From: Pegea sp. RAD2-039
Taxonomy: Eukaryota > Chordata > Thaliacea > Salpida > Salpidae
Direction: 5' to 3'
DNA length: 64,000 bases
Assembly: GCA_034620365.1 (NCBI GenBank)
Contig: JAQGEQ010000297.1
Location: 124,001 to 188,000, forward strand
Shown: piece after piece, positions 1 through 27,280 of the stretch
Numbering within the stretch: position 1 is the first letter of the stretch
How the letters are laid out: the number at the start of each line of letters is the position of its first letter
The notes under the pieces: model-generated
The model's database searches: none
Told to the model about the DNA's origin: nothing
Seen by the model: the letters and a program-made list of their open reading frames with translations, nothing else
Program-made: the position numbers and the translations under genes

Positions 1-275
1 ATTTTCAACAACAGCTTCATTGTTATTTTTCTAAAATAAACACAATATTATTAAAACGAAGTATAAGAGACATCATAAAGCTAACTAAATACTTTCATCA
101 AAAATTATCAAAAGATGTTAAAAACACAACTATTAGATTCATTCTAATTCAAACATAACTCAATTATTTGCAACTTACGATTTCTAATTTCCAGGTAGAA
201 AATAATCTTCACAATAAGTCCAAAGATTTTTGATATAGATTTCAAAAACACTCTAATAAATTCGTATAAGAACTG
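1..275 (-). CDS. Secreted-protein gene copy A, 5' end only
   Basis: Only the start of the gene lies in the window. Bases 1-20 are the beginning of the coding exon (ATG complement at 18-20), bases 21-30 are 5' UTR up to a TTTTAG acceptor, and the 5' UTR exon runs from 179 to a predicted start near 275, with a GTAAGT donor. A TATA box lies at 298-307. The rest is cut off by the window edge. By homology with copies B-D it should encode a 117-aa secreted protein. Confidence 0.8.
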
Positions 276-297
276 TACATTCTTCTTCTAGCCACTT

Positions 298-307
298 CTT
301 TATATAG
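298..307 (-). promoter_or_regulatory. TATA box of secreted gene copy A
   Basis: Reads CTATATAAAG on the minus strand, about 25-30 bp before the predicted 5' UTR exon. The same box occurs at the equivalent place in the three other copies. Confidence 0.75.
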
Positions 308-424
308 AACTTTATCTTTTTTTAAAAAAAAATAAATCTCCCTTTCTCGATCTGTAGCTATCATTTATCATTATTAATTGTCGCAGAAGCTTCCTGTTAA
401 ACTCTTATTGTTTGAACAAAAGGT

Positions 425-530
425 AAATTATTCAATTAATCAAACAAACTATTTATGATTCATAGTGTAATACCTTTTAAATGGTTGATTCATTTGGGAA
501 AATAATGATTCATGTAGTATGACTGATAAA
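425..530. promoter_or_regulatory. TGATTCA cluster behind copy A promoter
   Basis: Three TGATTCA heptamers at 456-462, 486-492 and 506-512, with related ATTCA half-motifs before them. TGATTCA has the TGA-N-TCA form bound by bZIP dimers of the AP-1/CREB type. It lies 120-210 bp upstream of the minus-strand TATA box and far upstream of gene a, so it could serve the secreted gene as an enhancer. Binding is inferred. Confidence 0.5.
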
Positions 531-539
531 ACGTAACTA

Positions 540-2100
540 ATTATGATAAAAATGTAAACAAATTTGATATCAAGAGATTGTATGTCAAAAATGACTCTCT
601 GTTGTTAAGTATTTTATTCTTTTAATCAATGAAGAATAGAAATAGGAAGTCATAAAAGTTTAAAAATTCCAAGTATTTTCTCAAAAAAGTTTGTAACATA
701 TTTTAAACTCTTAATGTATTTTTTAATTATATCTATAAACTAAACATAATTTAAGTTAAAGAATTGTAGAGTATTTGATTCAATTTAAAAAGGATAATAA
801 TTCAGATTACTTTTATCTTCAGTATTTTTATTTTTGAAATGTTATACTGTTTGTGGGAACATAGAAATTGATCCAAATCAATAGAACATGATAAAAATAG
901 TGTTTCCGTGAATGTATTGTTTACTTGTGAGTAAGCTAATAAAGAAGATGAAAATTTGTTTGATGAACTTATTTCAGTTTTATCTAATCTTCATCTACGT
1001 TTGCATAGTCCAAGTTAGTTTATAAAACAAAATCCACCTTATTTTGAACATAATGATATTCAAATAAAATCAGTCTTGCAGAAAATTGCAATAATATAAT
1101 TATATGTATATCATATTATCATACATTCATAAGTATTTATATTATTCCTGTAATAGCACTAGTTTCTTATGTTCATGTAAAAATTAATACTGGAGAGTAG
1201 TTTTTTATCTTGTAATCTGAGAATTAGGAACTTTGACATTCTTATTTTGCTTGGTAAATGTTTAAAAAGTATTATTTATGGGTATACTTTTGACGTAGTA
1301 GACATTATTATCCTAAATATCAGATTGTATGTGATTAGTTTTTTTTCAACTTTTGAACTGAAAAAAGTTATTTAGTCTTTAATGTTAAAAATAGTTAAAC
1401 GTTTATCCAGTAAACTATTCAAAAGTAATAAAGTAATGTTAACTTTGTTCTAAACAATATCTTTTAACCGATATAGGTGTGTATAATGACTACTTTATAT
1501 CATTTTCGCTGATAATAAACACTTAAGTTTGTCAATCATTTGTAAACTTTCGATCTTATTCGTTACTACAGTGATAAATTTACAAAAGACAAAAAATGTT
1601 ATTAAAATGAATTACATAAAAAAGTTTTACATAAAAAATTAAAGTTTTACTACAGGTATATTGCTGTTAAATCAAGAATTTACTAGTTTAAAATAGTTTT
1701 CAGTTACACACATTTGTTGTCAACCATACACCAAATTTTTCTATTTTTAATGGAAAGTGTAATCACAAAAAGCTAGTTCTAAAAGATATATTACAATCAT
1801 TCTAAAAGGAACTTCTTATCTGCAGAATATTTCAATTATCCTAATGATGGAATAAATACTTAACAAAAATTATGTATAGGTCTTAATGATCTAGCTTATG
1901 ATTGCAACAGTGCTTTTTATAATAAATAATTCAACTTCGCTAAAAAAAAGTTATCAAAATTAATTTTTGAGGATATATAATGTTTAGTGATTTTCTAACC
2001 AAGAGAAGAACAAATTCTTGTAAAGTATCAAAATTTTATAAAACTGTTATTCCTTAGTGGTTCCCTTTTTTAAAGATTGTTAAACATTGATTATTCATCT
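540..2100. other. Intra-unit spacer, no gene seen
   Basis: AT-rich sequence between the TGATTCA cluster and the promoter of gene a. I found no open frame or splice pattern that suggests a gene. It is conserved with 9590-11160 and more weakly with 3640-5330 and 19250-20660 because it is part of the duplicated unit. Confidence 0.6.
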
Positions 2101-2112
2101 TACAACAGGATG

Positions 2113-2193
2113 TGACGTCTTTAGTTGGTTTAAAACAAATTAGCACGAATCATAGTCTTTTTTCTTTTTTTTTCTACCAGTTTACTATTTAAG
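2113..2193 (+). promoter_or_regulatory. Core promoter of gene a: CRE-like site plus TATTTAA box
   Basis: TGACGTCT at 2113-2120 is followed 65 bp later by TATTTAAG at 2186-2193. The spacing and flanking words (GGATG before the site, GCARAGT after the box) are kept in all five array genes. The last base of the CRE is T here and in gene c, A elsewhere. Transcription probably starts near 2220. Confidence 0.65.
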
Positions 2194-2276
2194 CAAAGTC
2201 TCTACTAAGGAAGTTACATTCTTAAAAGATTTTACAATTTAAGATTTAGTAAAAGTTTAAAACCATTAACTTCGTC

Positions 2277-2510
2277 ATGAGTTGGGCTATTCTCCCGTCA
2301 CCACAACAATTACAACTAGAAGAACAAGCAAGACAACGACGTTTGTTACAAGAAGCAAGAGATCGACAACAAGAAGAATATCGCCGACAAGCAGATGAAG
2401 CGCTTTTCCAACGACAGGAGGCTGAGAAACGTCGTCAAGAAGAACAAAAACGTCAACAGGAAGAAAGAGATAGAAATGGTGGAAACAACGGAAATAATGG
2501 AAATAAGTAA
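2277..2510 (+). CDS. Small E/Q/R-rich helical protein, gene a
   Basis: Single-exon gene for 77 aa, starting MSWAILPSP. Residues 10-67 are nearly all Glu, Gln, Arg, Ala and Leu with heptad-like spacing, as in a stable single helix or coiled coil. The last ten residues are a Gly/Asn tail (GGNNGNNGNK). There is no signal peptide, membrane segment or cysteine. The start is supported by conservation of the ATG and following codons in copies a-d, and by a promoter about 60-90 bp upstream. An AATAAA at 2725-2730 fits a transcript of about 0.5 kb. The protein is identical to that of gene c. Function is unknown; the composition suggests a structural or cross-linked (transglutaminase-type) substrate, which is inference. 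Confidence 0.8.
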   Translation: MSWAILPSPQQLQLEEQARQRRLLQEARDRQQEEYRRQADEALFQRQEAEKRRQEEQKRQQEERDRNGGNNGNNGNK

Positions 2511-2724
2511 TCAGTTCCAATCTGGCAACATTTTCAAATATTATTTGATAACAGCAGACTGGTTTATAATTTTAGTGCTTTTAAGGTTTATATTCAAAGC
2601 CAACTAAACATTGGTTTCATAGAACCATAAAACACTTTAGTTTTTTTTTACCATAAAGTTTTGCTTTATCTTTGTTATTTGCATTTTTGTTGTCAATGTT
2701 TGTTGTTTCTGTATTTCACCTTGA

Positions 2725-2730
2725 AATAAA
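2725..2730 (+). terminator. Polyadenylation signal of gene a
   Basis: AATAAA 215 bp after the stop. The earlier site used in b, d and e is mutated here (AACTAAAC), so this is the first usable signal. Confidence 0.6.
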
Positions 2731-2759
2731 AAAGATATTTTAAACTGCGTATTATTTTC

Positions 2760-5330
2760 TTAGTAATGTTTCAAACAGATGCTGTTGGTTATAATTAATA
2801 ATTGTATTAACATTTGAATATATTTATATTTCATTGTTTTTTTTAAAGATTTTAGACAAATGATTAAAGTTTATATTAATGTAAAATGATGGAGACTATT
2901 AACTAAGGATAGATTTGTATTCAGCTGGCAACATACATTTATGCCTTTAATTATCTCTTGAAGTCTCTGTTAATTTTTTTTTTCTGACAAACAATGTTTT
3001 TATGCTTTTACTTTCAGGAAATTTATCAATTTAGTTGGATTAATCTTAGTAGAGATGCAACTCGTAAATGTTACTTTCTTGATTATGGTTTCCTTTCCAC
3101 TAAAATATTTGGCATTATACACTTCTGGAATATCTTTATCTTTAGTCAACTATGTTTTATACAATGTGTAGATTTTATTTTCAAAATAATGAGTTAAACC
3201 AGTTTATTAACTTTGTCATTATCTTGGGAAATGATTAATATAGAATGAGTTTGTTGTAAAGATTTAAGTCTAAGAAAATTAAGGGACTAATATAATTTTT
3301 ATTGTTTTTAGATATTTAATGCTAGTCACATAAAATATACAATATTAGTATTTATTTATATAATAAAGTATTTTTGAGGGATGTTACCTAAACCGAGCAC
3401 CTTCTATGGCACTTTATATAGAAACTTAACTGTTTTTGACGAAAAAAAAAACTTTCTTGCTCGATGTGTAACTATTATTCGTCACTATTAAATTTTGCTG
3501 AAACTTCCAGTTATATTCTTCTTATTTGAACAAAACATAAATCATTCAACAATTTATGCAAAGTGTTTATTAATCATATTATAACACTTTCTAAACGGTT
3601 GATTCATTTTGGAAAGTTATAGTTCATTTGGTATGAATTGAGAAACTTAACTAATTATGATAAAGATTAAAAGAAAATTAGATATGAACAGATCGTATCT
3701 CGAAAATGACTTGCAGTGGTTAAGTAGTTTTTTTTATTTGAATCAATAAATGATAGAAAAAGGAAACCTAACTAAATTTAAATCTCTTAAGTATATTTCA
3801 GAATAAATTGGTTAACATCTTAGAATCACTTGATATATATTTTTTAATATTCCTTAACTAAACATAATTTAATTTAAGGAGTTGTAGAAGAATTCATTTA
3901 TATAAACACCCTTAAATTAAATTTAACTTGATTTAAAAAAAATTTGATCTGAAGAGTTTTTATCTCAAAAATGACTCTGTGCTGTTAAGTATTAAATTTT
4001 TTTCATAAATAAAGCATAGATATAGGAAGTCATAAAATTTTAAAAATTTCAATTATTTTCAAAGAAAGTTTTCAACATTTTTCAAACTGTCAATATATTT
4101 TTTAATCATATCTCGAAATAAACATAATTTAAGTTAAAGAATTGTAGAGGATTTCACTTACTTGAAAAGGGGTGATTAATCAGATTATAATTATCTTTAA
4201 TATTTTTATTTTTGAAATGTTAAACTGTTTGTGGGATCATATAAATTGATCCAAAGGAATAGAACATAATAAAAATGGTGTTTCGTGCATGAATGTATTG
4301 TTAACTTGTGAGTAAGCTAATAAATAAGATGAAAATTTGTTTGATGAACATATTTCAGTTTTATCTAATCTTCTTCTACGTTTGCATAGTCCAACTACGT
4401 TTTCAAAGCAAAATCCACCATATTTATAATTTTACAATTTTCAAATGCAATCAGTCTTGCAAAAAATTGCAATAATATAATTATATGCATATCACAAAAT
4501 CATAATTTCATAAGTATATATATTATTTCTGTATTAGCACTAATTTCTTATGTTCATGTAAAAAAAAGATGATATTGGACGGTAGTTTTTATCTTGTAGT
4601 CTGAAGATTAGGAACTTTTATGTTCTTATTTTGCTTGGTAAATGTTTAATTAGTATTATGTATGGATTTTCTTTTGACGTAGTAAACATTATTATCTTAA
4701 AGATCAGATTGTATGCGAAAAGTCGTTTCAACTTTTGAACTCACTGAAGTAATTTAGCGATAATTGTAAAAGGTAGTTAAAAGTTTAGAAAGTCAACCAT
4801 TCAAAAGTCAGAAACTAATGTTAATTATAGTTTAAATTACAAGTAAAAGTGTTTTTCACAAAATTAAAATTTTTATTCCTGATAATATTGCTGTAACATC
4901 GAAAAATTACCTTAGTTTAGTTTAAAAGAGTTTCTAGTTACATACTTTCGTTGTAAACAATATAAAAAATTTTGCCAGTTTTAATTAAAAACTTAATCAC
5001 TAACGGGATAGTTCTAAAAGATATACTATAATCATCATAAAACAATGTTTCAATAGCAGAAAATGTCAATTATCCAAATAATAGAATAATGACTTAACAA
5101 CAATTATGTGTCTTAGTGATCTAGCTTATGATTGCAACAATGCTTTTTACAATAAATAATTCCAGTTTGTTAAAAAAATTTCACAAAATAAAGTTTATTG
5201 ATAGTCTCTGGTGAATTTCTAAACAAGAGATGAACAATTAGTAAAAAATACTATAATATTGTAAGATAGTTATTCATTAGTTGTTTCTTTTTTCTAAAAG
5301 GATTGGTAATCATTGATTCGTGATCTTAGA
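2760..5330. other. Spacer between genes a and b
   Basis: Holds the tail of the first half-unit and the head of the second. The junction lies near 3400, where the sequence starts to resemble about 310 onward. A weak TGATTCA module sits at 3535-3640. A polypyrimidine-CAG motif at about 3003-3018 recurs after every E/Q/R-rich gene and resembles a splice acceptor, but no convincing exon follows it. No gene is called. Confidence 0.55.
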
Positions 5331-5338
5331 ACAGGATG

Positions 5339-5411
5339 TGACGTCATTAGTTGGTTTAAAACAGATTAACACGAAATTTAGTCCTTTTTTTCTACCAGTT
5401 TACTATTTAAG
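5339..5411 (+). promoter_or_regulatory. Core promoter of gene b: TGACGTCA plus TATTTAA box
   Basis: Perfect palindromic CRE TGACGTCA at 5339-5346 and TATTTAAG at 5404-5411, 58 bp apart. Same arrangement as gene a. Confidence 0.7.
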
Positions 5412-5494
5412 CAGAGTTTCTACACAGAAAGTTAGATTCCTCAAATATTTTGCAACTTCAGATTTTGTATAGCCGAAAAAGAACTAACTTCGCT

Positions 5495-5908
5495 ATGAGT
5501 TGGGCTATCCTCCAATCACCAATGCAATTGCAACTAGAAGAGCAAGCAAGACAACGATATTTGTTCCCACAAGCAAGAGACCGAGAACAAGAAGAATCGC
5601 TTTTTCAACGACAGGAAGCAGAGAGACGTCGTGAAGTAGAACAAAGACAACTACAAGAAGATATACGACGACGAGAAGAGAGACGTCGAATAGAAGAAAG
5701 TCGTCAACGACAACAAAGACGTGAACAAGAAGAAAGACGTAGACGAGAAGAAAGACGTGAACGAGAAGAAAGACGTCAACGAGATAAAAGACTTCAAGAT
5801 GCAGAAAGAGCACGGCACGAAAGAAATTTACGAGAACTAGAAGAAAGACGTCGACGAGAAGAAAGAGATAGAAATGGTGGAAACAATGGAAATAATGGAA
5901 AGAAGTAA
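5495..5908 (+). CDS. E/Q/R-rich helical protein, gene b (long form)
   Basis: Single-exon gene for 137 aa. The ATG at 5495 is chosen because it aligns with the MSWAIL start of the other copies; an in-frame extension upstream has no ATG. The N-terminus and the GGNNGNNGK tail match gene a. The middle is expanded by arrays of RREER/REREER units encoded by 15-18 bp repeats (about 5630-5860). The chain is strongly charged and predicted helical throughout, with no cysteine, signal peptide or membrane segment. It lacks the EEYRRQADEA stretch of gene a. The AATAAA at 6001-6006 is the nearest poly(A) signal. Same family as gene a; role unknown. Confidence 0.8.
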   Translation: MSWAILQSPMQLQLEEQARQRYLFPQARDREQEESLFQRQEAERRREVEQRQLQEDIRRREERRRIEESRQRQQRREQEERRRREERREREERRQRDKRLQDAERARHERNLRELEERRRREERDRNGGNNGNNGKK

Positions 5909-6000
5909 TCAGTTCTATTCTGGCAACATTCTCAACTAATATTTGATAACGGCAGACTGCTCTAAAATTCTAGTGCTTTTAACTTTTATAATCAAAGCCA

Positions 6001-6006
6001 AATAAA
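6001..6006 (+). terminator. Polyadenylation signal of gene b
   Basis: AATAAA 93 bp after the stop, with a second at 6223-6228. Confidence 0.6.
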
Positions 6007-6239
6007 AATTGGATTTTCAAAACAATATAACAATTTGCATTTATTTACAATTAAAGTTTTGCTTTATCTTTGTCGATCGTTTCAAATATTAATTTTAAGC
6101 TGAAAATAATCTTTCGAGCAATTTAATTTCTTCATGTGACTGTAATAATGATACAAATTAGACGTTTTTAGTTGTTTGCCAATTTGTTGTCAAAACTTAT
6201 TGCTTCTGTATATCACCATGAAAATAAAACAAAATTATT

Positions 6240-7335
6240 TTAAACTGTATTTTAATTTCTTAGTAATATTTCAATCACTTTTTTTCTGTATCTATTAATT
6301 TGATTACAATAGGAATATATTTTATATAATGTATGTTTTTTTCAAGATTTCAGAGAAATAATTAAAGTTTAATATAATGTAAATTAATGTAAATTGAAGG
6401 AGACTATTAACTAAAGATAAAAGTGTATTCAGCTGGCAACATAATTTTATTTTTTTTATTATTACTTGAAGTTTCTTCTGAATCTTTTTCTGATAAACAA
6501 TCATTTTATGCTTTTACTTTCAGGAAATTTATAAATTTTGTTGAATTAATGTTATTAAGGGTGCAACTCTTAAATGTCAGTTTCTTGATTAAGGTTTTCT
6601 TTTCATTTAAATATTTAGCATTATACAGGTCTGGGATACTTATAGTCAATTATACCTTAAACAATGTGTAGGTTGTTTTATCAAAGTAATAAGTTACACC
6701 AGTTTATTAAGTTTGTCAATTGCTTAAGAAATGATTCATATAGAATGAATTTTGTTGAAAAGATTTAAGTCTAACAACATTAAAGCACTGGTATATTTTC
6801 ATTGTCTATAGATATTTAAGGCTAGTCACACAAGATATACAATATTAGTATTTATTTATATATTACACTATATGCAACGATGATACTTAAAATAAGCACC
6901 TTATAAAGCACTTCATATAGAAAATTATCTGTATTTGACAAAAAAAGAAATCTTTCTCACTTGGTGTGTAACTACTATACATCACTATTAATTTATGCTT
7001 AAGCTTCTAGTTAAACTATTCTCATTTGAACAAAACGTCAATGATTCATCAACTTATTCTAAGTGTCTATGAATCATAGTATAACACATTCCACATGGTT
7101 GATTCAATTGGAAAAATAATGATTCTTATCTTATGACTTGTTAAACGTAAATAATTACCATAATTTTCTTTTAATAGATATTAAGACATTGTATCTCAAA
7201 AATGACTCTTAGTTATTAAGTAGTTTCTTTTATTTTAATTAAATAAGTGTAGAAAATAAAGCTATCAAAATTTAAACCTTTCAAGAATGTTTAAAAACAA
7301 ATTGATTTACAGTTTTCAATCATTTATTATATTTT
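6240..7335. other. Tail of second half-unit and start of a truncated third
   Basis: AT-rich, without a supported gene. A third copy of the half-unit head starts near 6900 and breaks off near 7345. A TGATTCA module lies at 7035-7140 (7042, 7070 as TGAATCA, 7100). The frames readable here are poorly conserved between units. Confidence 0.5.
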
Positions 7336-7518
7336 TTAATAATATCCAAATATAATAATATGATATGACATATATGAACTAACATTGATATCGAGATTTC
7401 GACGTACGTAAAATTTGAAAATATTGATGAAAATGTTTAGATAGTTAGAATCAATGGCCTTAATAATAAAGTAGACGAGATAGATTATTTTTCCAAAGAT
7501 TTTGAAAGTATGATTCTG
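7336..7518 (-). pseudogene. Truncated copy of the hidden minus-strand frame (unit 1)
   Basis: Sixty codons open on the minus strand, matching the first half of the 105-codon frames at 16872-17189 and 23034-23351. The match stops at the deletion junction near 7385, so the cysteine-bearing second half and its AATAAA are missing. It keeps the YVRRNLDINVS segment. It is therefore a broken copy, whatever the original was. Confidence 0.5.
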
Positions 7519-7519
7519 C

Positions 7520-8460
7520 TATTTAAAGTCAGATGACAGAGTAATGCCAAGGTGTAGGGCCTAAGATATTTGTTGAATAATAAATCCATTTAAGGAGTAT
7601 TGCTTAAAGGAATTTGCACCTGGTTCACGGGAAAAATTTATAAGATCAGACTTTTTCTTATATAATTCAAATTAAATTATATTAACTAGATTTTAGACAA
7701 CTCTGATATATTACGTTAATAAACAAAACATTTAACTTTTTGTTAGCTAAACGTCTTACACTATTAAAACATTATTTTAAAATTATTATGATTTCTAAAA
7801 GTTTTTGTTGAAAAAAATTGTTAAACTAGTTTAATTACAATGAAAGTTTATTGCTAACACATCAAATCTGTGAAAAATTCACATGAAATGTAATCGTATT
7901 TCTTTAAGTTAAAGTTTTATATTAAGAATACTAAAATATAAAACTTTTGATTTAATGACTCAATCTGCACATATGTAAAATATATTGCCAGTATTTTATG
8001 TGATATTTTCTACGTTGATTTTATTATTTTTATAAAAAAGGATTGATTTATAACTGTTCAAATACATTTTGTCGACTTTTTGTTTCTAGATAAATATAAT
8101 TTTTTACTTTATGTTGTGTTTAAAATTTTCAAATATGATCTATCTTATACTTAAGCTGAAACAGGATTCTAATTTGAAAAAACAAATTTTAGTACTAATT
8201 CTTAGACACAACTTTCAGTTAACAATTGACAAAAATAGTGTTTGTTATTGCTAGGAATATTCTACTATATAAACATAAGCTTTCTAAATTACATTTAGTC
8301 GTTGCAGTTATCAATTTTGAAATAAATCAACAGACAAAAGTAATTAACAAAAGTCAGTAATTTACAAGCAACACATTTCAAAAATTTTTTTTAATCATCA
8401 CGATAGAATTATACATTTATATAGAAAACAACTACATATCGAAATTGTAAATCGACAGAA
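7520..8460. other. Spacer downstream of secreted gene copy B
   Basis: No gene is called. A minus-strand frame of about 33 codons (KKSDLINFSREPGANSF) near 7590-7680 looks protein-like and recurs in units 2 and 3, but lacks clear splice sites. A plus-strand TATATAAA at 8266-8273 faces the 3' end of the secreted gene and is kept in all units. Confidence 0.45.
8266..8273 (+). promoter_or_regulatory. Possible convergent TATA box (unit 1)
   Basis: TATATAAA on the plus strand about 240 bp beyond the secreted-gene stop, conserved at 17937-17944 and 24097-24104. It could start an antisense or non-coding transcript. In an AT-rich genome it may also be chance. Confidence 0.25.
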
Positions 8461-8514
8461 CTATTTTTATGATTTAATGATTATCCGTTATTCTTCTAAT
8501 TAGATGCAATGGAG

Positions 8515-9325
8515 TTAGAAATTTTGTCCATTTTTAAGATTTCTGGGGTTAAAGTAGTCGTTGATTTGTCTTTCTTTATACCAGTCGTCGGTTGATTTAG
8601 TAGCTTTTCTAATTGCACCTGCTTCTGGTTCGATTACAACCTTGTTTACATTATTATCACAAAGAACTGACGCAATATCCTCTGGGTCGTTCCCTTGTTT
8701 TGTGAAGATTTTAATGAGTTCCTTTAAAGCAATCAAATAGGTATAAAGTTAAAAGAAAAAATACAAGCTTACTTCTTTTGACAAAACATCTCCAACATTG
8801 AAATCGTCGGGGGTATTGTTATTTGCAGATTCTCCTACACTAACTGGATAAGCCTAAAAGGTTTAAAATAAAAAGATTTGTTTATTGTTTAATGATAAAA
8901 ATGAAAAAACTTCCACTATAATTCTTTTAATAAATTTACAGAATATATCTGAATCTAAATCAGTCGGTTAAATTAACAAACGATTGTTTTTGTAGCATTA
9001 AATACCTGACAGATTGAAATACTCATAAACATAATCATCGCCAAAATAAAGATTTTCAACAACAGCTTCATTGTTATTTTTCTAAAATAAACACAATATT
9101 ATTAAAACGAAGTATAAGACACATCATAAAACTAACTAAATACTTTCATCAAAAATAATCAAAAGATGTTAAAAACACAACTATTAGATTCATTCTAATT
9201 CAAACATAACTCAATTATTTGCAACTTACGATTTCTAATTTCCAGGTAGAAAATAATCTTCACAATAAGTCCAAAGATTTTTGATATAGATTTCAAAAAC
9301 ACTCTAATAAATTCGTATAAGAACT
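8515..9325 (-). CDS. Small secreted protein, copy B (four exons)
   Basis: Coding exons on the minus strand are 9006-9071, 8773-8853 and 8515-8721, giving 22 + 27 + 68 = 117 aa. A non-coding first exon runs from about 9325 to 9240. All junctions are GT...AG and introns 2 and 3 are in phase 0. The introns are 158, 152 and 51 bp. Exon 1 encodes a signal peptide (MKLLLKIFILAMIMFMSISIC), with likely cleavage after CQA. The mature part, about 94 aa, is hydrophilic, starts with a short acidic Asn-rich stretch and ends DWYKERQINDYFNPRNLKNG. Residue 70 is Cys here, Arg in copies C and D (CGT to TGT). The TATA box is at 9349-9358, and ATTAAA at 8473-8478 may be the poly(A) signal. Family not recognised; a secreted peptide, effector or matrix protein are all possible. 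Confidence 0.82.
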
Positions 9326-9348
9326 GTACATTCTTCTTCTAGCTACTT

Positions 9349-9358
9349 CTTTATATAG
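9349..9358 (-). promoter_or_regulatory. TATA box of secreted gene copy B
   Basis: CTATATAAAG on the minus strand, about 30 bp before the predicted start of the 5' UTR exon. Confidence 0.75.
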
Positions 9359-9479
9359 AACTTTATCTTTTTAAAAAAAAAAAGAAATCTCCCTTTCTCG
9401 ATCTGTAGCTATCATTTATCATTATTAATTGTCGCGGAAGCTTCCTGTTAAACTCTTATTGTTTGAACAAAAGGTAAAT

Positions 9480-9580
9480 TATTCAATTAATCAAACAAAC
9501 TATTTATGATTCATAGTGTAATACCTTTTAAATGGTTGATTCATTTGGGAAAATAATGATTCATTTAGTATGACTGATAA
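9480..9580. promoter_or_regulatory. TGATTCA cluster behind copy B promoter
   Basis: TGATTCA at 9507-9513, 9537-9543 and 9557-9563, in the same arrangement as at 456-512. Confidence 0.5.
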
Positions 9581-9589
9581 AACGTAACT

Positions 9590-11160: not shown

Positions 11161-11167
11161 CAGGATG

Positions 11168-11248: not shown

Positions 11249-11331
11249 CAAAGTCTCTACTAAGGAAGTTACATTCTTAAAAGATTTTACAATTTAAGAT
11301 TTAGTAAAAGTTTAAAACCATTAACTTCGTC

Positions 11332-16440: not shown

Positions 16441-16450
16441 AATTTAAATT

Positions 16451-16871: not shown

Positions 16872-17189
16872 TCATAAATCTTTGTTGCTGACATCACTAC
16901 AGGTGAGATAAAACCAAAGGAGGCGTTTAATAAAATCTTTTGCCGGATCTTCACCAGAGAAACTTTTATTGCAAGATTGGTAATTGCCATTACAAGCTTG
17001 TTTAGATAAAATTGGTTTGTCATTATGATGATGATATGACATCCATGCACTAACATTGATATCGAGATTTCGACGTACGTAAAATTTGAAAATATTGATG
17101 AAAATGTATAGATAGTTAGAATCAATGGTCTTAATAACAAAGTAGACGAGATTGATTATTTTTCCAAAGATTTTGAAAGTTTGATTCTG
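16872..17189 (-). pseudogene. Hidden 105-codon minus-strand frame with terminal-exon features (unit 2)
   Basis: Open from CAG at 17189 (just after a possible ATAGCAG acceptor) to TGA at 16872-16874, with AATAAA at 16843-16848, about 25 bp beyond the stop. That is the layout of a terminal exon. The second half is hydrophilic with four cysteines (SKQACNGNYQSC, later LTCSD). Unit 3 keeps exactly the same length. Two Asp in unit 3 are Tyr or His here, so this copy may be the degraded one. There is no ATG at the start and no complete upstream exon could be built. Parts of the opposite strand are also open, so the coding strand is not certain. Confidence 0.4.
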
Positions 17190-17199
17190 CTATTTAAAG

Positions 17200-18130
17200 T
17201 CAGATGACAGAGTAATGCCGAGGTGTAGAGCCTAAGATATTTATTGAATAATAAATCCATTTAAGGAGTATTGCTTAAAGGAATTTGCACCTGGTTCACG
17301 GGAAAAATTTATAAGATCAGACTTTTTCTTATATAATTCAAATTAAATTATATTAACTAGATTTTAGACAACTCTGATATATTACGTTAATAAACAAAAC
17401 ATTTAACTTTTTGTTAGCTAAACGTTTTACACTATTAAAACATTATTTTAAAATTATTATGATTTCTAAAAGTTTTTGTTGAAAACAATTGTTAAACTAG
17501 TTTAATTACAATGAAAGTTTATTGCTAACACATCAAATCTGTGAAAAATTCACATGAAATGTAATCGTATTTCTTTAAGTTAAAGTTTTATATTAAGAAT
17601 ACTAAAATATAAAACTTTTGATTTAATGACTCAATCTGCACATATGTAGAATATATTGCCAGTATTTTATATGATATTTTCTACGTTGTTTTTATTATTT
17701 TTATAAAAAAGGATTGATTTATAACTGTTCAATTACATTTTATCGACTTTTTGTTTCTAGATAAATATTAGTTTTTACTTTATGTTGTGTTTAAAATTTT
17801 CAAATATGATCTATCTTATACTTAAGCTGAAACAGGATTCTAATTTGAAAAAACAAGTTTTAGTACTAATTCGTAGACACAAATTTCAGTTAACAATTGA
17901 CAAAAATAGTGTTTGTTATTGCTAGGAATATTCTACTATATAAACATAAGCTTTCTAAATTACATTTAGTCGTTGCAGTTATCAATTTTGAAATAAATCA
18001 ACAGACAAAAGTAATTAACAAAAGTCAGTAATTTCCAAGCAGAACATTTCAAAAATTTTGTTTAATCATCACGATAGAATTATACATTTATATAGAAAAG
18101 AACTACATATCGAAATTGTAAATCGACAGA
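17200..18130. other. Spacer downstream of secreted gene copy C
   Basis: Counterpart of 7520-8460. Contains the same short SREPGANSF-type frame and the plus-strand TATATAAA at 17937-17944. No complete gene. Confidence 0.45.
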
Positions 18131-18185
18131 ACTATTTTTATGATTTAATGATTATCCGTTATTATTTTATTTAGATGCAATGGAG

Positions 18186-19000
18186 TTAGAAATTTTGTCC
18201 ATTTTTAAGATTTCTGGGGTTAAAGTAGTCGTTGATTTGTCTTTCTTTATACCAGTCGTCGGTTGATTTAGTAGCTTTTCTAATTGCACCTGCTTCTGGT
18301 TCGATTACAACCTTGTTTACATTATTATCACGAAGAACTGACGCAATATCCTCTGGGTCGTTCCCTTGTTTAGTGAAGATTTTAATGAGTTCCTTTAAAG
18401 CAATCAAATAGGTATAAAGTTAAAAGAAAAAATACAAGTTTACTTCTTTTGACAGAACGTCTCCAACATTGAAATCGTCGGGGGTATTGTTATTTTTAGC
18501 TTCTCCTCCACTAACTGGATAAGCCTATGAAATTAAAAAATATAAAGATTTGTTAACTTTTGAATGATAAAAATGGAAAAAAAGCCTTTATTAAATTTAT
18601 CTTACTATATATGCAGAATGTAACTGAATATAAATCAGTCGGTTAAATTAACAAACGATTGTTTTTGTAGCATTAAATACCTGACAGATTGAAATACTCA
18701 TAAACATAATCATCGCCAAAATAAAGATTTTCAACAACAGCTTCATTCTTATTTTTCTAAAATAAACACAATATTATTAAAACGAAGTATAAGACACATC
18801 ATAAAACTAACTAAATACTTTCATCAAAAATAATCAAAAATTGTTAAAAACACAACTATTAGATTCATTCTAATTCAAACATAACTCAATTATTTGCAAC
18901 TTACGATTTCTAATTTCCAGGTAGAAAATAATCGTCACAATAAGTCCAAAGATTTTTTATATAGATTTCAAAAACACTCTAATAAAATCGTATAAGAACT
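18186..19000 (-). CDS. Small secreted protein, copy C (four exons)
   Basis: Coding exons are 18681-18746, 18444-18524 and 18186-18392 (117 aa), preceded by a 5' UTR exon from about 19000 to 18905. Acceptor and donor sites match copy B. The signal peptide is unchanged. The start of the mature protein differs from copy B (SGGEAKNNN against SVGESANNN), while the last 68 residues are the same except Arg70. The TATA box at 19024-19033 reads CTATAAAAAG. Function unknown. A full set of splice sites and an intact frame argue that it is expressed. Confidence 0.82.
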
Positions 19001-19023
19001 GTACATTCTTCTTCTAGCCAACC

Positions 19024-19033
19024 CTTTTTATAG
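19024..19033 (-). promoter_or_regulatory. TATA box of secreted gene copy C
   Basis: CTATAAAAAG on the minus strand. It is a variant of the CTATATAAAG in the other copies but still a good TATA box. Confidence 0.7.
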
Positions 19034-19149
19034 AACTTTATCTCTTTTTGACAAAAGAAGAAATCTCCCTTTCTCGATGTGCAGCTATCATTTATCATTA
19101 TTAATTGTCGCAGAAGCTTCCTGTTAAACTCTTATTGTTTGAACAAAAG

Positions 19150-19245
19150 GTAAATGATTCAATTAATCAAACAAACTCTTTATGATTCATAGTCTAAGAC
19201 ATTATAAATGGTTGACTCATTTGGGAAAAAAATGATTCATTTGGT
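19150..19245. promoter_or_regulatory. TGATTCA/TGACTCA cluster behind copy C promoter
   Basis: TGATTCA at 19155-19161, 19183-19189 and 19233-19239, plus a canonical AP-1 heptamer TGACTCA at 19213-19219. The AP-1 match occupies the slot that is TGATTCA in other copies, which supports a bZIP reading of the whole cluster. Confidence 0.55.
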
Positions 19246-19249
19246 ATGA

Positions 19250-20660
19250 CTGGAAAGATTTAACTATTTATCACAAAGATTTAAAAAAAATTGATATAAA
19301 GAGATTATATTTTAAATATGATTTTCTGTTGTTAAGTATTTTATTCTTTCAATATATGAAGCATAGATATAGGAAGTCATAAAAATTAGAAAATTCCTGT
19401 TAATTTTATAAGAAAGTTTTCAATTTTTTTCACACACTTAATATGTTTCTTAATTTTATCTCTAAACTAAACATAAATTAAGTTAAAGAATTGTAGAGGA
19501 TTTCACTCACTTTAAAAAGGATAATAGATAATATTATATTTATCTTTAATATATTATTTTTTGAAATGTTAAACTGTTTGTATGAATTGATCCAAATCAT
19601 CAGGATATGATTAAAATAGTGTTTCCGTCTATGAATTAATTGTTTACTTGTGAGTATGCTATTAAAGAAGATGTAAATTTGTTTGTTAAACTTTTTCAGT
19701 TTTTTTTTTTAATCTTCATCTACTTTTGCATAGTCCAACTTCGTTGTTAGTTAAAATCCACCTTGTTTTTAGCCTAACAATTTTCAAATAAAATCATTCT
19801 TGCAAAAAAATCCAATAATACAATTAAATGTATATCATAATATCACATTTTCATAGCTATATGTATTATTCCTGTATTAGCACTAATTTCTTTTTTGCAT
19901 AAAAAAAAAGATTTTGGACGGTAGTTATTTTTCTTGTAATTTGAATATTAGGGACTTTTATGTGCTTATTTTGCTCGGTAAAACTTTAATTAGTTATATT
20001 TATGGATTTTCTTGTGACGTAGTAGACTTTATTATCATAATAATCAGATTGTATGTGATTAATTGTTTCAGCTTTTTAACTTAATGAAGTACTTTAATCA
20101 CAACTTTTAAAGGTATTTAATAGTTCATAAAGTGATTCATTCAAAATTGAGAAAATAATATTAATTATAGTTTCATTACAAGAAAAAGTTTTATGTACAA
20201 AATTAAATTTTTTTACTACTGCTATAGTTCCTATACAATCGAAAAATTATCAGTTTAAAATATATTTTAGTTACTAACATTCGTTGTTAACCATACACCA
20301 ATTTTTTTTTTAATTTTGATAAAAAATTTAGTCACTAACTGTATAGTATTAAAAGATATATTATAATCATCTAAAAACAATTTTTTTATGGGCATAAAAT
20401 TTCAATTATCTTAATGATGGAATACAAACTTAACAACAATTATGTATAAGTCTTAGTGATCTAGCTTATATGCTTTTACAATAAATAATTCAAATTTGTT
20501 TAAAAAAAATTTTCAAAATTAATTTTTAACCATTTAAAGTGTTAGGCGATTTTCTAACCAAGAGACGAATAATTAGTTTTAAAATACCAAAATTTTGTAA
20601 ATCTGATGTTCTTCAGTTGTTCCTTTTTTCCGGAAAGATTAGTAACCTTTCATTATTCAT
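19250..20660. other. Spacer upstream of gene e, no gene seen
   Basis: Diverged counterpart of 540-2100. Open frames are short and not conserved. Confidence 0.5.
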
Positions 20661-20833: not shown

Positions 20834-21157
20834 ATGACTTGGCCGTTTCCCCCATCACCAATGCAATTGCGACTAGAAGAACAAGCCAGACAACGACGTT
20901 TGTTACAAGAAGCAAGAGATCGACAACAAGAAGAATATCGTCGACAAGCAGATGAAGCGCTTTTCCAACGACAGGAAGCAGAGAGACGTCGTCAAGAAGA
21001 ACAAAGCCGTCAACAGGAAGAAAGTCGTCGACAAGAAGAAAGACGACGACAAGAAGAAAGACGACGACAAGAGGAAAGACGACGACAAGATGAAAGACGT
21101 CGAGAAGAAGGAGGAGATGGAAATGGTGGAAACAATGGAAATAATGGAAAAAACTAA
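20834..21157 (+). CDS. E/Q/R-rich helical protein, gene e
   Basis: Single-exon gene for 107 aa. The ATG at 20834 aligns with the other copies (MTWPFPPSP in place of MSWAILPSP). The first 50 residues follow gene a, including EEYRRQADEALFQRQEAE. A repeat block then resembles the expansion in b and d but with the unit RRQEER, encoded by three tandem 18-bp repeats at 21041-21094. The tail is GGDGNGGNNGNNGKN. AATAAA at 21250-21255. It is the most diverged array member yet keeps start, frame, tail and promoter, the best sign in this window that the family is under selection. Confidence 0.83.
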   Translation: MTWPFPPSPMQLRLEEQARQRRLLQEARDRQQEEYRRQADEALFQRQEAERRRQEEQSRQQEESRRQEERRRQEERRRQEERRRQDERRREEGGDGNGGNNGNNGKN

Positions 21158-21249
21158 TCAGTTTTATTCTGGCTACATTATCAACTAATATTTGATAACG
21201 GCAGATTGCTTTATATTTCTTGTGTTTTTAAGTTTTATAATCAATGCCA

Positions 21250-21255
21250 AATAAA
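21250..21255 (+). terminator. Polyadenylation signal of gene e
   Basis: AATAAA 93 bp after the stop, at the same place as in b and d. Confidence 0.6.
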
Positions 21256-21259
21256 AATT

Positions 21260-22560
21260 GGCTTTTTAGAACCATAAAATACTTTGGATTTATTTACCAT
21301 AAAAGTCTTACTTTATATTTTTCGATCATTTCAAACATTGATTGTAGGCTGAAAATAATCTTTCAGGCATTTTAATTTCTTCAAGTAGTTCAAATGACAA
21401 ATCTAGTTTGACTTTTTCAGTTGTTTACCAATTTGTTGTCAAAGTTTCTTGTTTCTGTATTCAGCGTTGGAAATAAAAAATATATTTGAAACTGTATATT
21501 AATTTTCTAGTAATCTTTTAAACACTTGTTCTTACTTATAACCAGTAATTTGATGAAAATAGGAATATTTTAATCTTTTAGATGTTTTCTTTAGATTTCA
21601 GACAAATGATTAAAGATTATATTAATGTAAATTTATGGAGACTCTAGGTAAAAGATAGATTTGTATTCAACTGGCAACATACTTTACTTTTTTTTATTAA
21701 ATCTTAAAGTTTTTTTAATGTTTTTTTGATAAATTCTTTTTATGCTATTACCTTCAGGAAATTTATCTATCTGGTTGAAATAATGTTAGTAAAGAACGAT
21801 ATTGTAAATGTTAGTTTCTTGATTAATGTTTTCTTTTTCATTCAAATATTCAGCATTATAAAGGTCTCAGATATTTGTAGTCAACTATAATTTAAACAAT
21901 GTGTAAATTTTTTTTCAAAGTAATAAGTCACACCATTTTTATAACTTTGTCCATAACTGTAGAAATAATTCATATAAAATGAGTTTTGTTGAAAAGATTT
22001 AAGCCTAACAACGTTAACGGACTGATATAATTTTCATGGTTTATAGATTTTTAAGGCTAGTCACACAAAATATACAATATTAGTATTTATTTATATGTTA
22101 CATATATGCAAGGAAAATACTTAAAATAAGCACCTTATTTAGCACTTTATAAAAAAATTTACTGTTTTTGCCAAAAAAAATAAATCTTTCTCGCTCGGTG
22201 TGTAACTATCTTTCATCACTATTAATTTATGCTAAATCTTCCAGTTAAATTCTTCTTACTAGAAAAACGTAAATCATTCAACAATTTATGAAACGTGTTT
22301 ATGAATCATAGTATTACACATTCGAAATGGTTGATTAATTTGAGAAACTTGTAGTTCATTTGTTATGACTAGAGAAACCTAACTTATTATGATGAAAATT
22401 TACAGAAAATTAGATATGAACACATCATATCTGAAAAATGAGTCGCAGTTCTTAACTAATTTTTTTATATTTTAATCAATAAAATTGGTTATCAAAATTT
22501 AAAACGTTTAAGTATGGTTCAAAAAAATCGGTCAACATTTTTTCAATCAATTGTTATAAT
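21260..22560. other. Half-unit tail and truncated next half-unit
   Basis: AT-rich. A weak TGATTCA-type module lies near 22270-22370. No gene is supported. Confidence 0.5.
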
Positions 22561-22676
22561 TTTTATATAATATCCCTCAATTAAACATAATTTAAAATAA
22601 GAAGTCGTAGAAGAATTCATTTACGATAAAGAGCCTTACTAATCGGTTTATTGTTTATCTAAAATATTTATTAGAT

Positions 22677-22931
22677 TTGGAACGTTTGCGTGTCGCCGAC
22701 TTTCTTGGCAAGAAGCTGAAACATACAAGCAGTTTTATTGGAATCAGAATCATCGACCACCGAGGCCCATGTTACAAGTATTTTTCTAGAAGCATTCAGT
22801 TCATCCATCGTCTCAGACTTACTACAAAAAATTTGATTGATCGTGGCAACACAGTATTTAGCAACAACAAAAATTTAGGATTTAAATTTGGCCAAATCAG
22901 TAGATATAGATTTGCTGATGTCGGACATTAG
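22677..22931 (+). pseudogene. Unrecognised plus-strand frame, better preserved copy (unit 3)
   Basis: Eighty-four codons open on the plus strand with balanced, protein-like composition (IGIRIIDHRGPCYKYFSRS, then NLGFKFGQISRYRFADVGH). There is no ATG at the start, and the frame can be read further upstream. After the stop at 22929-22931 the same frame stays open for another 22 codons (VGIEIRVSGCSVHGSTLYE), so the TAG may be a disabling change. Family not recognised. The neighbouring region also has a plus-strand frame (GEIKPEEAFNKIFCRIF) overlapping the minus-strand candidate at 23034-23351. Confidence 0.4.
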
Positions 22932-23033
22932 GTTGGAATCGAAATTAGAGTTAGTGGATGTTCTGTCCATGGTTCTACATTATATGAATAACACTTAAAT
23001 CGTATTTATTTCATCTGGAGGTTTTCATATGTT

Positions 23034-23351
23034 TCATAAATCTTTGTTGCTGACATCACTACAGGTGAGATCAAACCAGAGGAGGCGTTTAATAAAATCT
23101 TTTGCCGGATCTTCACCAGAGAAACTTTTATTGCAAGATTGGTAATTGCCATTACAAGCTTGTTTAGATAAAATTGGTTTGTCATTATGATGATCATATG
23201 ACATCCATGCACTAACATTGATATCAAGATTTCGACGTACGTAAGATTTGAAAATATTGATGAAAATGTATAGATAGTTAGAATCAATGGTCTTAATAAC
23301 AAAGTAGACGAGATTGATTATTTTTCCAAAGATTTCGAAAGTTTGATTCTG
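23034..23351 (-). pseudogene. Hidden 105-codon minus-strand frame (unit 3)
   Basis: Same length and borders as 16872-17189, ending TGA at 23034-23036. Reads NVSAWMSYDHHNDKPILSK, then four Cys and KRLLWFDLTCSDVSNKDL. It differs from unit 2 at a handful of codons. Possibly the last exon of a cysteine-bearing extracellular protein. An upstream frame beginning ATG-Asp-Leu-Leu near 23400 could carry the start, but no donor joins it in frame. Confidence 0.4.
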
Positions 23352-23359
23352 CTATTTAA

Positions 23360-24300
23360 AGTCAGATGACAGAGTAATGCCGAGGTAGGCCTAAGATATT
23401 TATTAAATAATAAATCCATTTAAGGAGTATTGCTTAAAGGAATTTGCACCTGGTTCACGGGAAAAATTTATAAGATCAGACTTTTTCTTATATGATTCAA
23501 ATTAAATTATATTAACTAGATTTTAGACAACTCTGATATATTACGTTAATAAACACCACATTTAACTTTTTGTTAGCTAAACGTTTTACACTATTAAAAC
23601 ATTATTTTAAAATTATTATGATTTCTAAAAGTTTTTGTTGAAAAAAATTGTTAAACTAGTTTAATTACAATGAAAGTTTATTGCTAACACATCAAATCTG
23701 TGAAAAATTCACATGAAATGTCATCGTATTTCTTTAAGTTAAAGTTTTATATTAAGAATACTAAAATATAAAACTTTTGATTAAATGACTCATCCTGCAC
23801 ATATGTAGAATATATTGGCAGTATTTTATATGATATTTTCTACGTTGTTTTTATTATTTTTTTAAAAAAGGATTGATTTATAACTGTTCAATTACATTTT
23901 ATCTGCTTTTTGTTTCTAGATAAATATACTTTTTTACTTTATGTTGTGTTTAAAATATTCAAATATGATCTATCTTATACTTAAGCTGAAACAGGATTCT
24001 AATTTGAAAAAAACAAGTTTTAGTACTAATTCGTAGACACAACTTTCAGTTAACAATTGACAAAAATAGTGTTTGCTATTGCTAGGAATATTCTACTATA
24101 TAAACATAAGCTTTCTAAATTACATTTAGTCGTTGCAGTTATCAATATTGAAATAAATCAACAGACAAAAGTAATTAACAAAAGTCAGTAATTTACAAGC
24201 AACACATTTCAAAAATTTTTTTTAATCATCACGATAGAATTATACATTTATATAGAAAACAACTACATATCGAAATTGTAAATCGACAGAACTATTTTTA
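23360..24300. other. Spacer downstream of secreted gene copy D
   Basis: Counterpart of 7520-8460 and 17200-18130, almost identical. Plus-strand TATATAAA at 24097-24104. No complete gene. Confidence 0.45.
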
Positions 24301-24345
24301 TGATTTAATGATTATCCGTTATTCTTCTAATTAGATGCAATGGAG

Positions 24346-25160
24346 TTAGAAATTTTGTCCATTTTTAAGATTTCTGGGGTTAAAGAAGTCGTTGATTTGT
24401 CTTTCTTTATACCAGTCGTCGGTTGATTTAGTAGCTTTTCTAATTGCACCTGCTTCTGGTTCGATTACAACCTTGTTTACATTATTATCACGAAGAACTG
24501 ACGCAATATCCTCTGGGTCATTCCCTTGTTTTGTGAAGATTTTAATGAGTTCCTTTAAAGCAATCAAATAGGTGTAAAGTTAAAAGAAAAAATACAAGCT
24601 TACTTCTTTTGACAAAACATCTCCAACATTGAAATCGTCGGGAATATTATTATTTGCAGCTTCTTCTCCACTAACTGGATAAGCCTATGAAATTAAAAAA
24701 TGAAAAGATTTGTTAATTTTTGAATGATAGAAATGGAAAAAAAGCCTTCATTAAATTTATCTTACTATATATGCAGAATGTAACTGAATATAAATCAGTC
24801 GGTTAAATTAACAAACGATTGTTTTTGTAGCATTAAATACCTGACAGATTGAAATACTCATAAACATAATCATCGCCAAAATAAAGATTTTCAACAACAG
24901 CTTCATTGTTATTTTTCTAAAATAAACACAATATTATTAAAACGAAGTATAAGAGACATCATAAAACTAACTAAATACTTTCATCAAAAATAACCAAAAG
25001 ATGTTAAAAACACAACTATTAGATTCATTCTAATTCAAACATAACTCAATTATTTGCAACTTACGATTTCTAATTTCCAGGTAGAAAATAATCGTCACAA
25101 TAAGTCCAAAGATTTTTGATATAGATTTCAAAAACACTCTAATAAATTCGTATAAGAACT
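24346..25160 (-). CDS. Small secreted protein, copy D (four exons)
   Basis: Coding exons are 24841-24906, 24604-24684 and 24346-24552 (117 aa), with a 5' UTR exon from about 25160 to 25065. The signal peptide matches the other copies. The mature N-terminus differs again (SGEEAANNNIPDD). In the last exon only Tyr105 is changed, to Phe. The TATA box at 25184-25193 reads CTATATAAAG. Together the three complete copies show changes concentrated in coding exon 2. Confidence 0.82.
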
Positions 25161-25183
25161 GTACATTCTTCTTCTAGCCACTT

Positions 25184-25193
25184 CTTTATATAG
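25184..25193 (-). promoter_or_regulatory. TATA box of secreted gene copy D
   Basis: CTATATAAAG on the minus strand, at the same distance from the donor of exon 0 as in the other copies. Confidence 0.75.
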
Positions 25194-25309
25194 AAATTTA
25201 TCTCTTTTTGACAAAAAAAGAAATCTCCCTTTCTCGATGTGTAGCTGTCATTTGTCATTACTAATTGTTTCTGAAGCCTCCTGTTAGATTATTATTGTTT
25301 TAACAAAAG

Positions 25310-25405
25310 GTAAATGATTCAATTAGTCCATCGAACTCTCTATGATTCATAGTGTAATACCTTTTAAATGGTTGATTCATTTGGAAAAATAATGATTCAT
25401 TTAGT
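25310..25405. promoter_or_regulatory. TGATTCA cluster with four copies behind copy D promoter
   Basis: TGATTCA at 25315-25321, 25343-25349, 25373-25379 and 25393-25399, the densest cluster in the array. A further degraded module with TGATTCA at 25822 and 25850 lies at the array edge. Confidence 0.55.
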
Positions 25406-25949
25406 ATGACTGATAAAACGTAACTAATTATAATAAAAAAATTAAAAAATTTCGATATGAAGAGATTGTATCTCAGAAATGACTCTCTGTTGTTAAGTAT
25501 TTTATTCTTTCAATAAATGAAGCATAGAAACTGAAACTCATAAAAGTTAAAAAATTTCACTTATTTTCATAAAAAAGTTTTCAAATTTTAGAAACTGTTT
25601 AGATATTTTTAAAAAAATATCTCCACCTATGTATGTGCATATCTTTACTTGTGAGTAAGCTATTAAAAGAAAAAAGGTACTTATGCTTGATTAAATTTTT
25701 CTTAGCTTTACCTAATGTTTTTGATCAAAATATTTCTTACTTGAATTGTATCAATCATTTGTCATTATTAATTGTTGTTGAAGTTTCTTGTTTAATTCTT
25801 ATTGTTTGAACACAGGGTAAATGATTCAATTATTTAAACAAACTATTTCTGATTCATAGTGTAAGATAATATAAATGGTAGACTCATTTCGGAAAATAAT
25901 GATTTGTTTGGTATGACTGGAAAAACCTTACTAATTAAAAACGGTATTA

Positions 25950-27280
25950 GAAACTGTTAAATTGAATTCTGTAAATCTCTTTTTTATCTATTAAGGTTAC
26001 CTATATAATATACTTAGTCAAAACTGTTACAATTAAAACTTTTTTTTTAAATCATTTTTTTCAAGGCTTGTGATAAGAGAGATTATTTCAAATTTAATTC
26101 TGTGATGAGTTTTGAGATCGCTCCTTTGCCAAATAATATTTCAAATATGCAAATAATTGCAAAAATTTTAACTTTAAGGACCTTTTTGACTTTGTTACTC
26201 GTATGTTACGTTTTTATCTATGTTATACTTTTATCCAGTCTGTCGATTTTGCTCTTTCGTAGACATGAAAAATAGTTAAACAAAAATAATCCACAATTTT
26301 AAGAACTAGTTGATTTATTCTTCTGCTGTTACATTCGATTTCACAAAATAATCTCTGGTAAATACAAAAGTCGGGTATTGATTAACAATTTTATTAATTT
26401 GTTACTTCTTAAAAAAATAAACTGCAAGATTATTTCATTTGGTTGTTAACATTTTATAATAATAATTAAAAAGTTTATCACTTCTGATTTAATCTCTAGA
26501 TTTCTTAACTTGTGAATTGCTTAAAAGCTCTAAAGATTTTCGTATAGTATCTTGTTAAAGAGATTTTTTTTAATCTTTCATTATATTTTAACATAAAGAA
26601 AATATCTTCCTAATGTGATGGTAGAGATTGTAGAGTAAAATAAGAACTTATATTAAATATATTATACTCATTTTAAGATAAAACAAAATAAATATTTTTT
26701 CTAGAAGTCACTATTTATTAACAGTTTGTTTTAAAATCTGATATTAAACAAAAGTATTAAGAATTAATACAATTTATCAAAACTAATATTTTTTTGCAAT
26801 CATAATAGTTTTCTGTCGAAACATAGTTTCTTAGACTTTTGTCGGCAAAACTTTATATGTCATAAATATTAATATGACAGTTACTATACATTAAGTTAAC
26901 TGCTAGCTATGAACTGATTTAGTTAATTGTGGGTTTCAGCTTTATATAATTTACAGCTACAATGCATCCATCTTCCACTGAATTTTATTAGTTTAGTATC
27001 AATTTTTGTTTCTTATATATTTTAGCCAAATAAATATTTTCAATTGAATTAAAACATTGAATAAGAAATAATAAATAATTGAAAAGGGAACAATTTTGTC
27101 TTATTGTAAAGTTTTACCATTTTCGTAAATTTGTACTTTTTACAACTAATGCGTCATACTAGGATTAATTTTCTTTAGAAAAAGTAAAGAATCATTTATG
27201 ACTATATTGACTAAGCAATTAGTCATATTAAAAGTGCTTCCTTTTTCTTGATTCTAGCTACACATTTAAGGATAAACTTA
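25950..27280. other. Unique AT-rich region between array and 630-aa gene
   Basis: No match to the array units and no supported gene. A TATATAA followed by a nine-codon ATG frame near 26940-26990 is too short to call. Confidence 0.5.

Follow-up and report, generated by a model that had tools for sequence, protein, structure and literature searches.

The stretch of DNA analysed here (the window) comprises 64,000 nucleotides from the salp Pegea sp. RAD2-039 (assembly GCA_034620365.1, 105.7 Mb in 387 contigs), namely positions 124001–188000 of contig JAQGEQ010000297.1, here C260. The window has a guanine plus cytosine content of ~26%, and its left end belongs to a compound tandem array of ~68 kb, of which it covers the right-hand portion. 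The array runs from ~C260:81860 to window position ~26011, and in it genes for a small, putatively secreted protein alternate, on opposite strands, with genes for proteins rich in glutamate, glutamine and arginine (E/Q/R-rich). A tandem array of such paired genes had been proposed from the window alone (the original prediction). The array is real, and it extends beyond the left edge of the window and onto contig C111 (27,431 bp), which appears to be built from array units, with long matches to C260 that are 89–97% identical. From these matches, C111 would either continue the array or represent another haplotype.

Self-comparison of the window showed that positions 1–7347 and 9052–16427 are 97.2% alike, positions 14825–19428 and 20998–25589 are 88.4% alike, and positions 7360–9743 and 23193–25580 are 94.6% alike; units start near 1, 9052, 18727 and 24887. 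Together, C260 and C111 contain 13 secreted-protein genes, of which 12 have an open frame, and 20 E/Q/R-rich genes, of which 18 are both complete and open. With S for the secreted gene (minus strand) and A, B and C for three E/Q/R types (plus strand), the order on C260 is A,S,A,B,C,S,A,B,S,C,S,C,S,A,S,A,B,S,A,B,S,C,S, followed by a gene for a 630-amino-acid E/Q/R-rich protein, and that on C111 is S,A,B,S,A,S,C,S,A,B, the last B being cut by the contig end. One to three E/Q/R genes lie in each of the 11 gaps between successive secreted genes, and the make-up of a unit between them varies (ABC, AB, C or A). At least two unrelated genes are thus repeated together in head-to-tail units, and most copies are intact, with near-identical coding parts (12/13 secreted, 18/20 E/Q/R), as in a compound tandem gene array. 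The claim that every unit carries intact genes holds for the window, where the three complete secreted genes, the 20-base start of a fourth and five E/Q/R genes are open (Table 1), but not for the whole array: the secreted gene at C111:15458 is broken by a TAG at codon 96, and the E/Q/R gene at C260:95243 has an early TGA.

The coding sequence of the secreted-protein gene is split into three exons (66, 81 and 207 nucleotides) by two introns, both in phase 0 with GT–AG borders. Exon 1 encodes a hydrophobic leader (judged by eye, with no predictor), and the mature part of the protein would be ~95 amino acids long. Across the 13 copies, 24 of 354 exon sites vary, compared with 54 of 203 intron sites (Fisher p 3e-10, which is only rough because the copies are related). 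The exon changes comprise 10 synonymous changes over 72 sites and, over 279 sites, 15 non-synonymous changes that include the stop (rough Fisher p 0.02). The mean pairwise ratio of non-synonymous to synonymous substitution rates (dN/dS) is 0.20 for the 66 pairs among the 12 open copies.

The complete E/Q/R-rich products of the array are 77–152 amino acids long, with GGNNGNNG-type tails and, by eye, no hydrophobic leader. Type A is present in nine copies of 77 amino acids, on both contigs, whose coding DNA is identical including the synonymous sites. There are six copies of type B (137–152 amino acids, one cut by the contig end) and five of type C, which are 101–113 amino acids long apart from one of 80 amino acids with an early stop. 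In one copy each of types A–C, pairs of opposite charges are enriched at spacings of 3 and 4 residues (z = 3.3–6.7 against residue shuffles), and hydrophobic residues make up only 15–22%. In their charge spacing, the E/Q/R products match a single alpha-helix.

The promoters are conserved in both gene types, as originally predicted. A TATA-like box reading TATTTAAG/A lies at –91 in all 20 E/Q/R genes, and a CRE-like TGACGTC(A/T) lies at –156 to –164 in 18 of them, nine of which have the exact palindrome TGACGTCA, that of the cyclic AMP response element (CRE), a CREB/ATF site. This palindrome occurs nine times in 124 kb of C260 (six times in E/Q/R promoters, once at the 630-amino-acid gene and twice elsewhere), and is absent from the region of a secreted-gene paralogue on contig C43 (18.5 kb). 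The 630-amino-acid gene has TATATAAA at –141 and TGACGTCA at –298 from its ATG. All 13 secreted genes have a TATA-like box at a regular place (~–286), which reads TATATAAA in 11 and TATAAAAA in two, C260:142746 (which also has TATATAAA at –217) and C111:15458. Loss of the TATA box from the broken copy C111:15458 was considered and rejected, as the box is present in the form TATAAAAA. A candidate donor CGTAAGT at –159/–158 in 12 of the 13 secreted genes, and a candidate acceptor TTATTTTAG at –19 in all 13, suggest an intron in the 5' untranslated region.

A block of ~900 bp found 5' of types A and B (window ~556–1442 and 3936–4824) is ~84% alike between the two and is possibly regulatory. In this block, which is conserved between the A and B modules, lies a short leader-like open reading frame (ORF; window 948 and 4329), which was considered as a third gene of the unit. 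Among 13 copies that match its start pattern, two are broken by a 13-bp deletion and nine stop after 25 amino acids, and it was not counted as a gene.

The sequence of type A is invariant across its nine copies from –78 to +252, a run of 331 bp that includes the whole coding sequence. The flanks vary (37 of 400 sites in –600 to –200, 22 of 200 in 234 to 434), and the next longest invariant run in this 2-kb stretch is ~40 bp. Coding-part diversity is also low in type B (5/6 copies used) and type C (5/5). Such sameness could result from recent gene conversion or expansion instead of selection, since exchange homogenises arrays and the type-A copies of both contigs agree even at the synonymous sites of their coding sequence. 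At the rate of the nearby DNA, 4.7 variable synonymous sites would be expected in type A and none was seen (chance ~0.009), a result that is hard to explain by selection on the protein alone and so leaves room for conversion. However, the invariant block is centred on the promoter and coding sequence in nine copies whose neighbours differ, with variation rising on both sides, and types A and C differ more at synonymous than at non-synonymous sites (dS 0.24, dN 0.065, 57 codons; rough Fisher p 0.01). We consider conversion or expansion an unlikely explanation for the sameness. Both gene types, secreted and E/Q/R, look constrained. It is extremely improbable that the E/Q/R frames are low-complexity DNA and not genes. 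Their composition is indeed of low complexity, and frames on the other strand are open in places. Against this stand a TATA-like box at a set position in 20 of 20 genes, the invariant type-A coding sequence, the charges spaced at i+3/i+4 and the excess of dS over dN between types A and C.

Neither protein family had been recognised at first sight, and database searches bore this out. The secreted 117-amino-acid protein has no significant match in Pfam (best E-value 0.013, below the cut-off), PDB (best E-value 0.022) or NCBIfam. No match was found in Pfam for E/Q/R types A, B and C and the 630-amino-acid protein, and no significant match in NCBIfam (types B, C and the 630-amino-acid protein) or PDB (type B). 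In the open-licence literature, no paper was found that, judged by its listing, is about these proteins, or that contains the protein strings tried. Both are orphan families by the Pfam, NCBIfam and PDB searches. An expressed sequence tag survey of Brachionus plicatilis reports abundant transcripts for which neither Pfam nor BLAST gave a relative, and no trans-spliced leader (PMC1925144). Those transcripts are likewise orphans, and the parts of that survey available to us describe neither array protein. In the present assembly, the bdelloid spliced-leader sequence was not found (monogononts are reported to lack it; PMC1925144). Searches for COX1, for insect odorant receptors (PF02949) and for an arthropod cuticle domain (PF00379) gave no match either; for the last two this is weak evidence of absence, since no control genome gave a match.

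The best-supported reading of the array is dosage amplification of two linked orphan families. Through repeated exchange, a segment with two unrelated small gene families on opposite strands would have multiplied, in the style of a histone cluster, to give a high dose of both products; we assign this reading a probability of about 0.5. Histone clusters are compound tandem arrays with several unrelated small genes per unit, on both strands, in near-identical copies with TATA promoters. The array shares each of these properties, and differs from histone clusters in its orphan proteins, its variable unit make-up and the introns of its secreted gene. TATA-like boxes together with CRE-like sites suggest strong, cell-type-specific and co-regulated transcription. 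On this reading, the mature part of the secreted protein might be exported, and the two products might both come from one tissue and serve a single structure or secretion, such as a cuticle, an egg envelope or a gland product.

The E/Q/R products may form single-alpha-helix, trichohyalin-like rods inside the cell. In trichohyalin and trichohyalin-like proteins, repeats dominated by E, Q and R are expected to form a charged single helix, and the Q and R content would suit cross-linking or modification. A charged single helix is likewise expected from the E/Q/R-dominated repeats of the array proteins, but these are short (77–152 amino acids when complete), have no EF-hand by Pfam and match no family significantly. 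The N-terminal S100 EF-hand of trichohyalin proper, the S100-fused type, was not detected by Pfam in types A, B, C or the 630-amino-acid protein. Like single-alpha-helix (ER/K) proteins, they place opposite charges at i to i+3/i+4 and have few hydrophobic residues; unlike them, they are also rich in Q, and are short and stand-alone instead of being a linker in a motor protein.

Elsewhere in the genome, relatives of the two families are not always found together. By protein searches, the secreted family has four loci in this genome: the array, C322 (84% identity to the array protein), C43 (49% identity, 157 amino acids; 421994–422673, plus strand) and C245 (33% identity, 159 amino acids). The array also brings to light an uncharacterised family of secreted proteins, found at four loci in one genome. 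The C43 and C245 paralogues have the same exon layout as the array gene and a longer C-terminus, of which no convincing remnant was found 3' of the array stop. C281 is a partial duplicate of C322 (94–99% identical) and probably represents the other haplotype of that part, going by this similarity; it also has an apparent tandem repeat at ~14.1–16.9 kb with repetitive ORFs. The original prediction named a dN/dS near 1 in more diverged copies in related species as a sign against it. Within this genome the answer is mixed. The two distant paralogues point to constraint (array vs C43, dN ~0.35 and dN/dS ~0.3, p 0.0014; array vs C245, dN ~0.56 and dN/dS ~0.5, p 0.03; dS near saturation in both), but the comparison with C322 is compatible with a ratio of 1 (dS 0.11–0.18, dN 0.07–0.08, dN/dS 0.45–0.72).

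The arrangement at C43 resembles that of the array: the secreted paralogue sits between E/Q/R-rich frames of 514 and 492 amino acids on the opposite strand (Table 1). In a genome-wide pattern search for E/Q/R clusters, the total of 722 matches was below that of a reversed control (849), and for this reason only the dense clusters, picked by eye among the first 100 matches listed, were used. Among these, contigs C1–C23 (at least 24.8 Mb, the sum of the largest coordinates seen) have two dense E/Q/R clusters, both on C23, or four if Q/S- and Q/E/S-rich clusters are included. One is a 497-amino-acid E/Q/R-rich open frame (minus strand, in the region C23:483901–487000), and a second pattern cluster lies ~23 kb away on the other strand (C23:508288–508857). 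The expected frequency of a dense cluster at most 7 kb from any one gene is then ~0.1–0.2%, and since dense clusters looked rare in this part of the genome the C43 neighbourhood is unlikely to be due to chance, with the caveat that this estimate is post hoc. A genome search with the 492-amino-acid C43 protein (E-value 1e-6) returned places on C43 alone; since it also missed the E/Q/R genes of the window, no base rate was taken from it. No ORF of at least 60 amino acids with 45% E+Q+R was found in 118.6 kb (C260:64–82 kb, C322, C281 and C245, of which C281 and C322 overlap as near-duplicates).

The two families may act as a single functional pair: the orphan secreted protein and the charged single-helix proteins would have been linked on opposite strands since an old duplication (C43, C260) and later amplified for dose, as clade-specific structural or secretory material. 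We regard this specific pairing as tentative and rather doubtful, and the joint use of both products, as far as the sequences go, as plausible but unproven. Should the two proteins work together, they would make up a clade-specific two-part product supplied in high dose and offer a natural model for how orphan genes gain dosage and keep their identity.

A number of observations weigh against the dosage reading or against joint use. Pairing inside one array is not by itself evidence of joint use, because segment duplication predicts it. No clear promoter motif common to both gene types was found: the shared 8-mers (four and two on the respective strands) are mostly A/T-rich, and the CRE-like site is seen at E/Q/R genes only. 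Between the array and C322, dN/dS cannot be told from 1 (rough Fisher p 0.15). Of the other three loci of the secreted family, two have no intact E/Q/R gene nearby: no E/Q/R-rich ORF was found in the 17 kb examined at C245, and C322 has only two broken E/Q/R relics (234853 and 256711), ~75 and 96 kb away. Linkage is thus not obligatory, as it is found at two of the four secreted loci. Conversely, no relative of the secreted family was found at the C23 E/Q/R locus. Homology between the E/Q/R proteins of C43 and the array is unproven: 15 of 400 dipeptide shuffles score as high as the real comparison, and the C23 protein, which is unlinked, matches better. No homology of the array E/Q/R proteins to the 630-amino-acid window protein, the C43 proteins or the C23 protein could be demonstrated.

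Many of these points would suit passive co-amplification, in which functional but unrelated neighbours were copied by unequal crossing-over and their pairing says nothing about function. Duplication alone yields pairing within an array, the paralogues on C245 and C322 have no intact E/Q/R neighbour, no secreted relative was found at the C23 E/Q/R locus, and the variable unit make-up indicates that the E/Q/R and secreted genes duplicate partly independently. The recurrence of the arrangement at C43 (49% protein identity) and the apparent rarity of dense E/Q/R clusters speak against passive copying, and we consider it a serious possibility that falls short of probable. The original suggestion that the two products are used together accordingly keeps the support of C43 and loses that of the pairing within the array. 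Even if the pairing is passive, the 33 gene copies allow selection and homogenisation to be compared on short charged-helix proteins. A selfish or antagonistic nature of the pair is very unlikely; one form of it would be a secreted effector with an intracellular partner, kept in many copies by conflict. Orphan families, changes in copy number and a faster-changing linker in the secreted protein (dN 0.15 at residues 23–48 vs C322) would fit such a conflict, but dN was never above dS, pairwise or regionally, in the comparisons made, and Pfam gave no toxin-like or inhibitor-like family match above the cut-off.

The amplification of two linked families for dose remains our preferred reading, and the individual features are listed in Table 1. 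The large frame directly beyond the array has several repeats with PPKQEE-like motifs.

Table 1. Coordinates of the array features in the window and of E/Q/R-rich frames on contig C43 (window positions unless C43 is given).
Feature	Position	Strand	Remarks
Secreted gene, first 20 bases of exon 1	1–20	–	Rest left of window (C260:124020)
E/Q/R type A, 77 aa	2277–2510	+	Single frame, open; coding sequence identical in nine copies
CRE-like palindrome TGACGTCA	5339–5346	+	156 bp 5' of type-B ATG
TATTTAAG box	5404–5411	+	91 bp 5' of type-B ATG
E/Q/R type B, 137 aa	5495–5908	+	Open frame
Secreted gene copy 1, 117 aa	8515–9071	–	GT/AG splice sites, open frame; coding exons 9006–9071 (leader, read by eye), 8773–8853, 8515–8721 (including stop); introns 152 and 51 bp
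TATATAAA box	9350–9357	–	286 bp 5' of secreted-gene ATG
E/Q/R type A, 77 aa	11332–11565	+	Open frame
E/Q/R type B, 143 aa	14556–14987	+	Open frame
Secreted gene copy 2, 117 aa	18186–18746	–	GT/AG, open frame; introns 156 and 51 bp
E/Q/R type C, 107 aa	20834–21157	+	Open frame
Secreted gene copy 3, 117 aa	24346–24906	–	GT/AG, open frame; introns 156 and 51 bp
Final partial unit, right end of array	24887–26011	.	Self-comparison and genome matches
Large E/Q/R/K-rich open frame, 630 aa from ATG	27588–29480	+	Directly beyond array
E/Q/R-rich open frame, 549 codons stop to stop, 514 from ATG	C43: 413787–415433	–	
E/Q/R-rich open frame, 492 aa	C43: 425630–427105	–	
E/Q/R-rich fragment	C43: 440683–440994	+	

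Within the array, duplicated minus-strand ORFs at window positions 16844–17189 and 23006–23351 resemble, by eye, the repeat-element ORFs of C281 (12190–12402 and 33367–33609, minus strand), and are probably a retrotransposon fragment that was inserted before the last unit duplications. Reverse-transcriptase-like ORFs are also present on C281 and C322. In the remainder of the window (30000–64000), ORF fragments that resemble one another are repeated on both strands (such as ~46364–46655, 54237–54551, 58096–58368 and 62751–62987), which suggests dispersed repeats.

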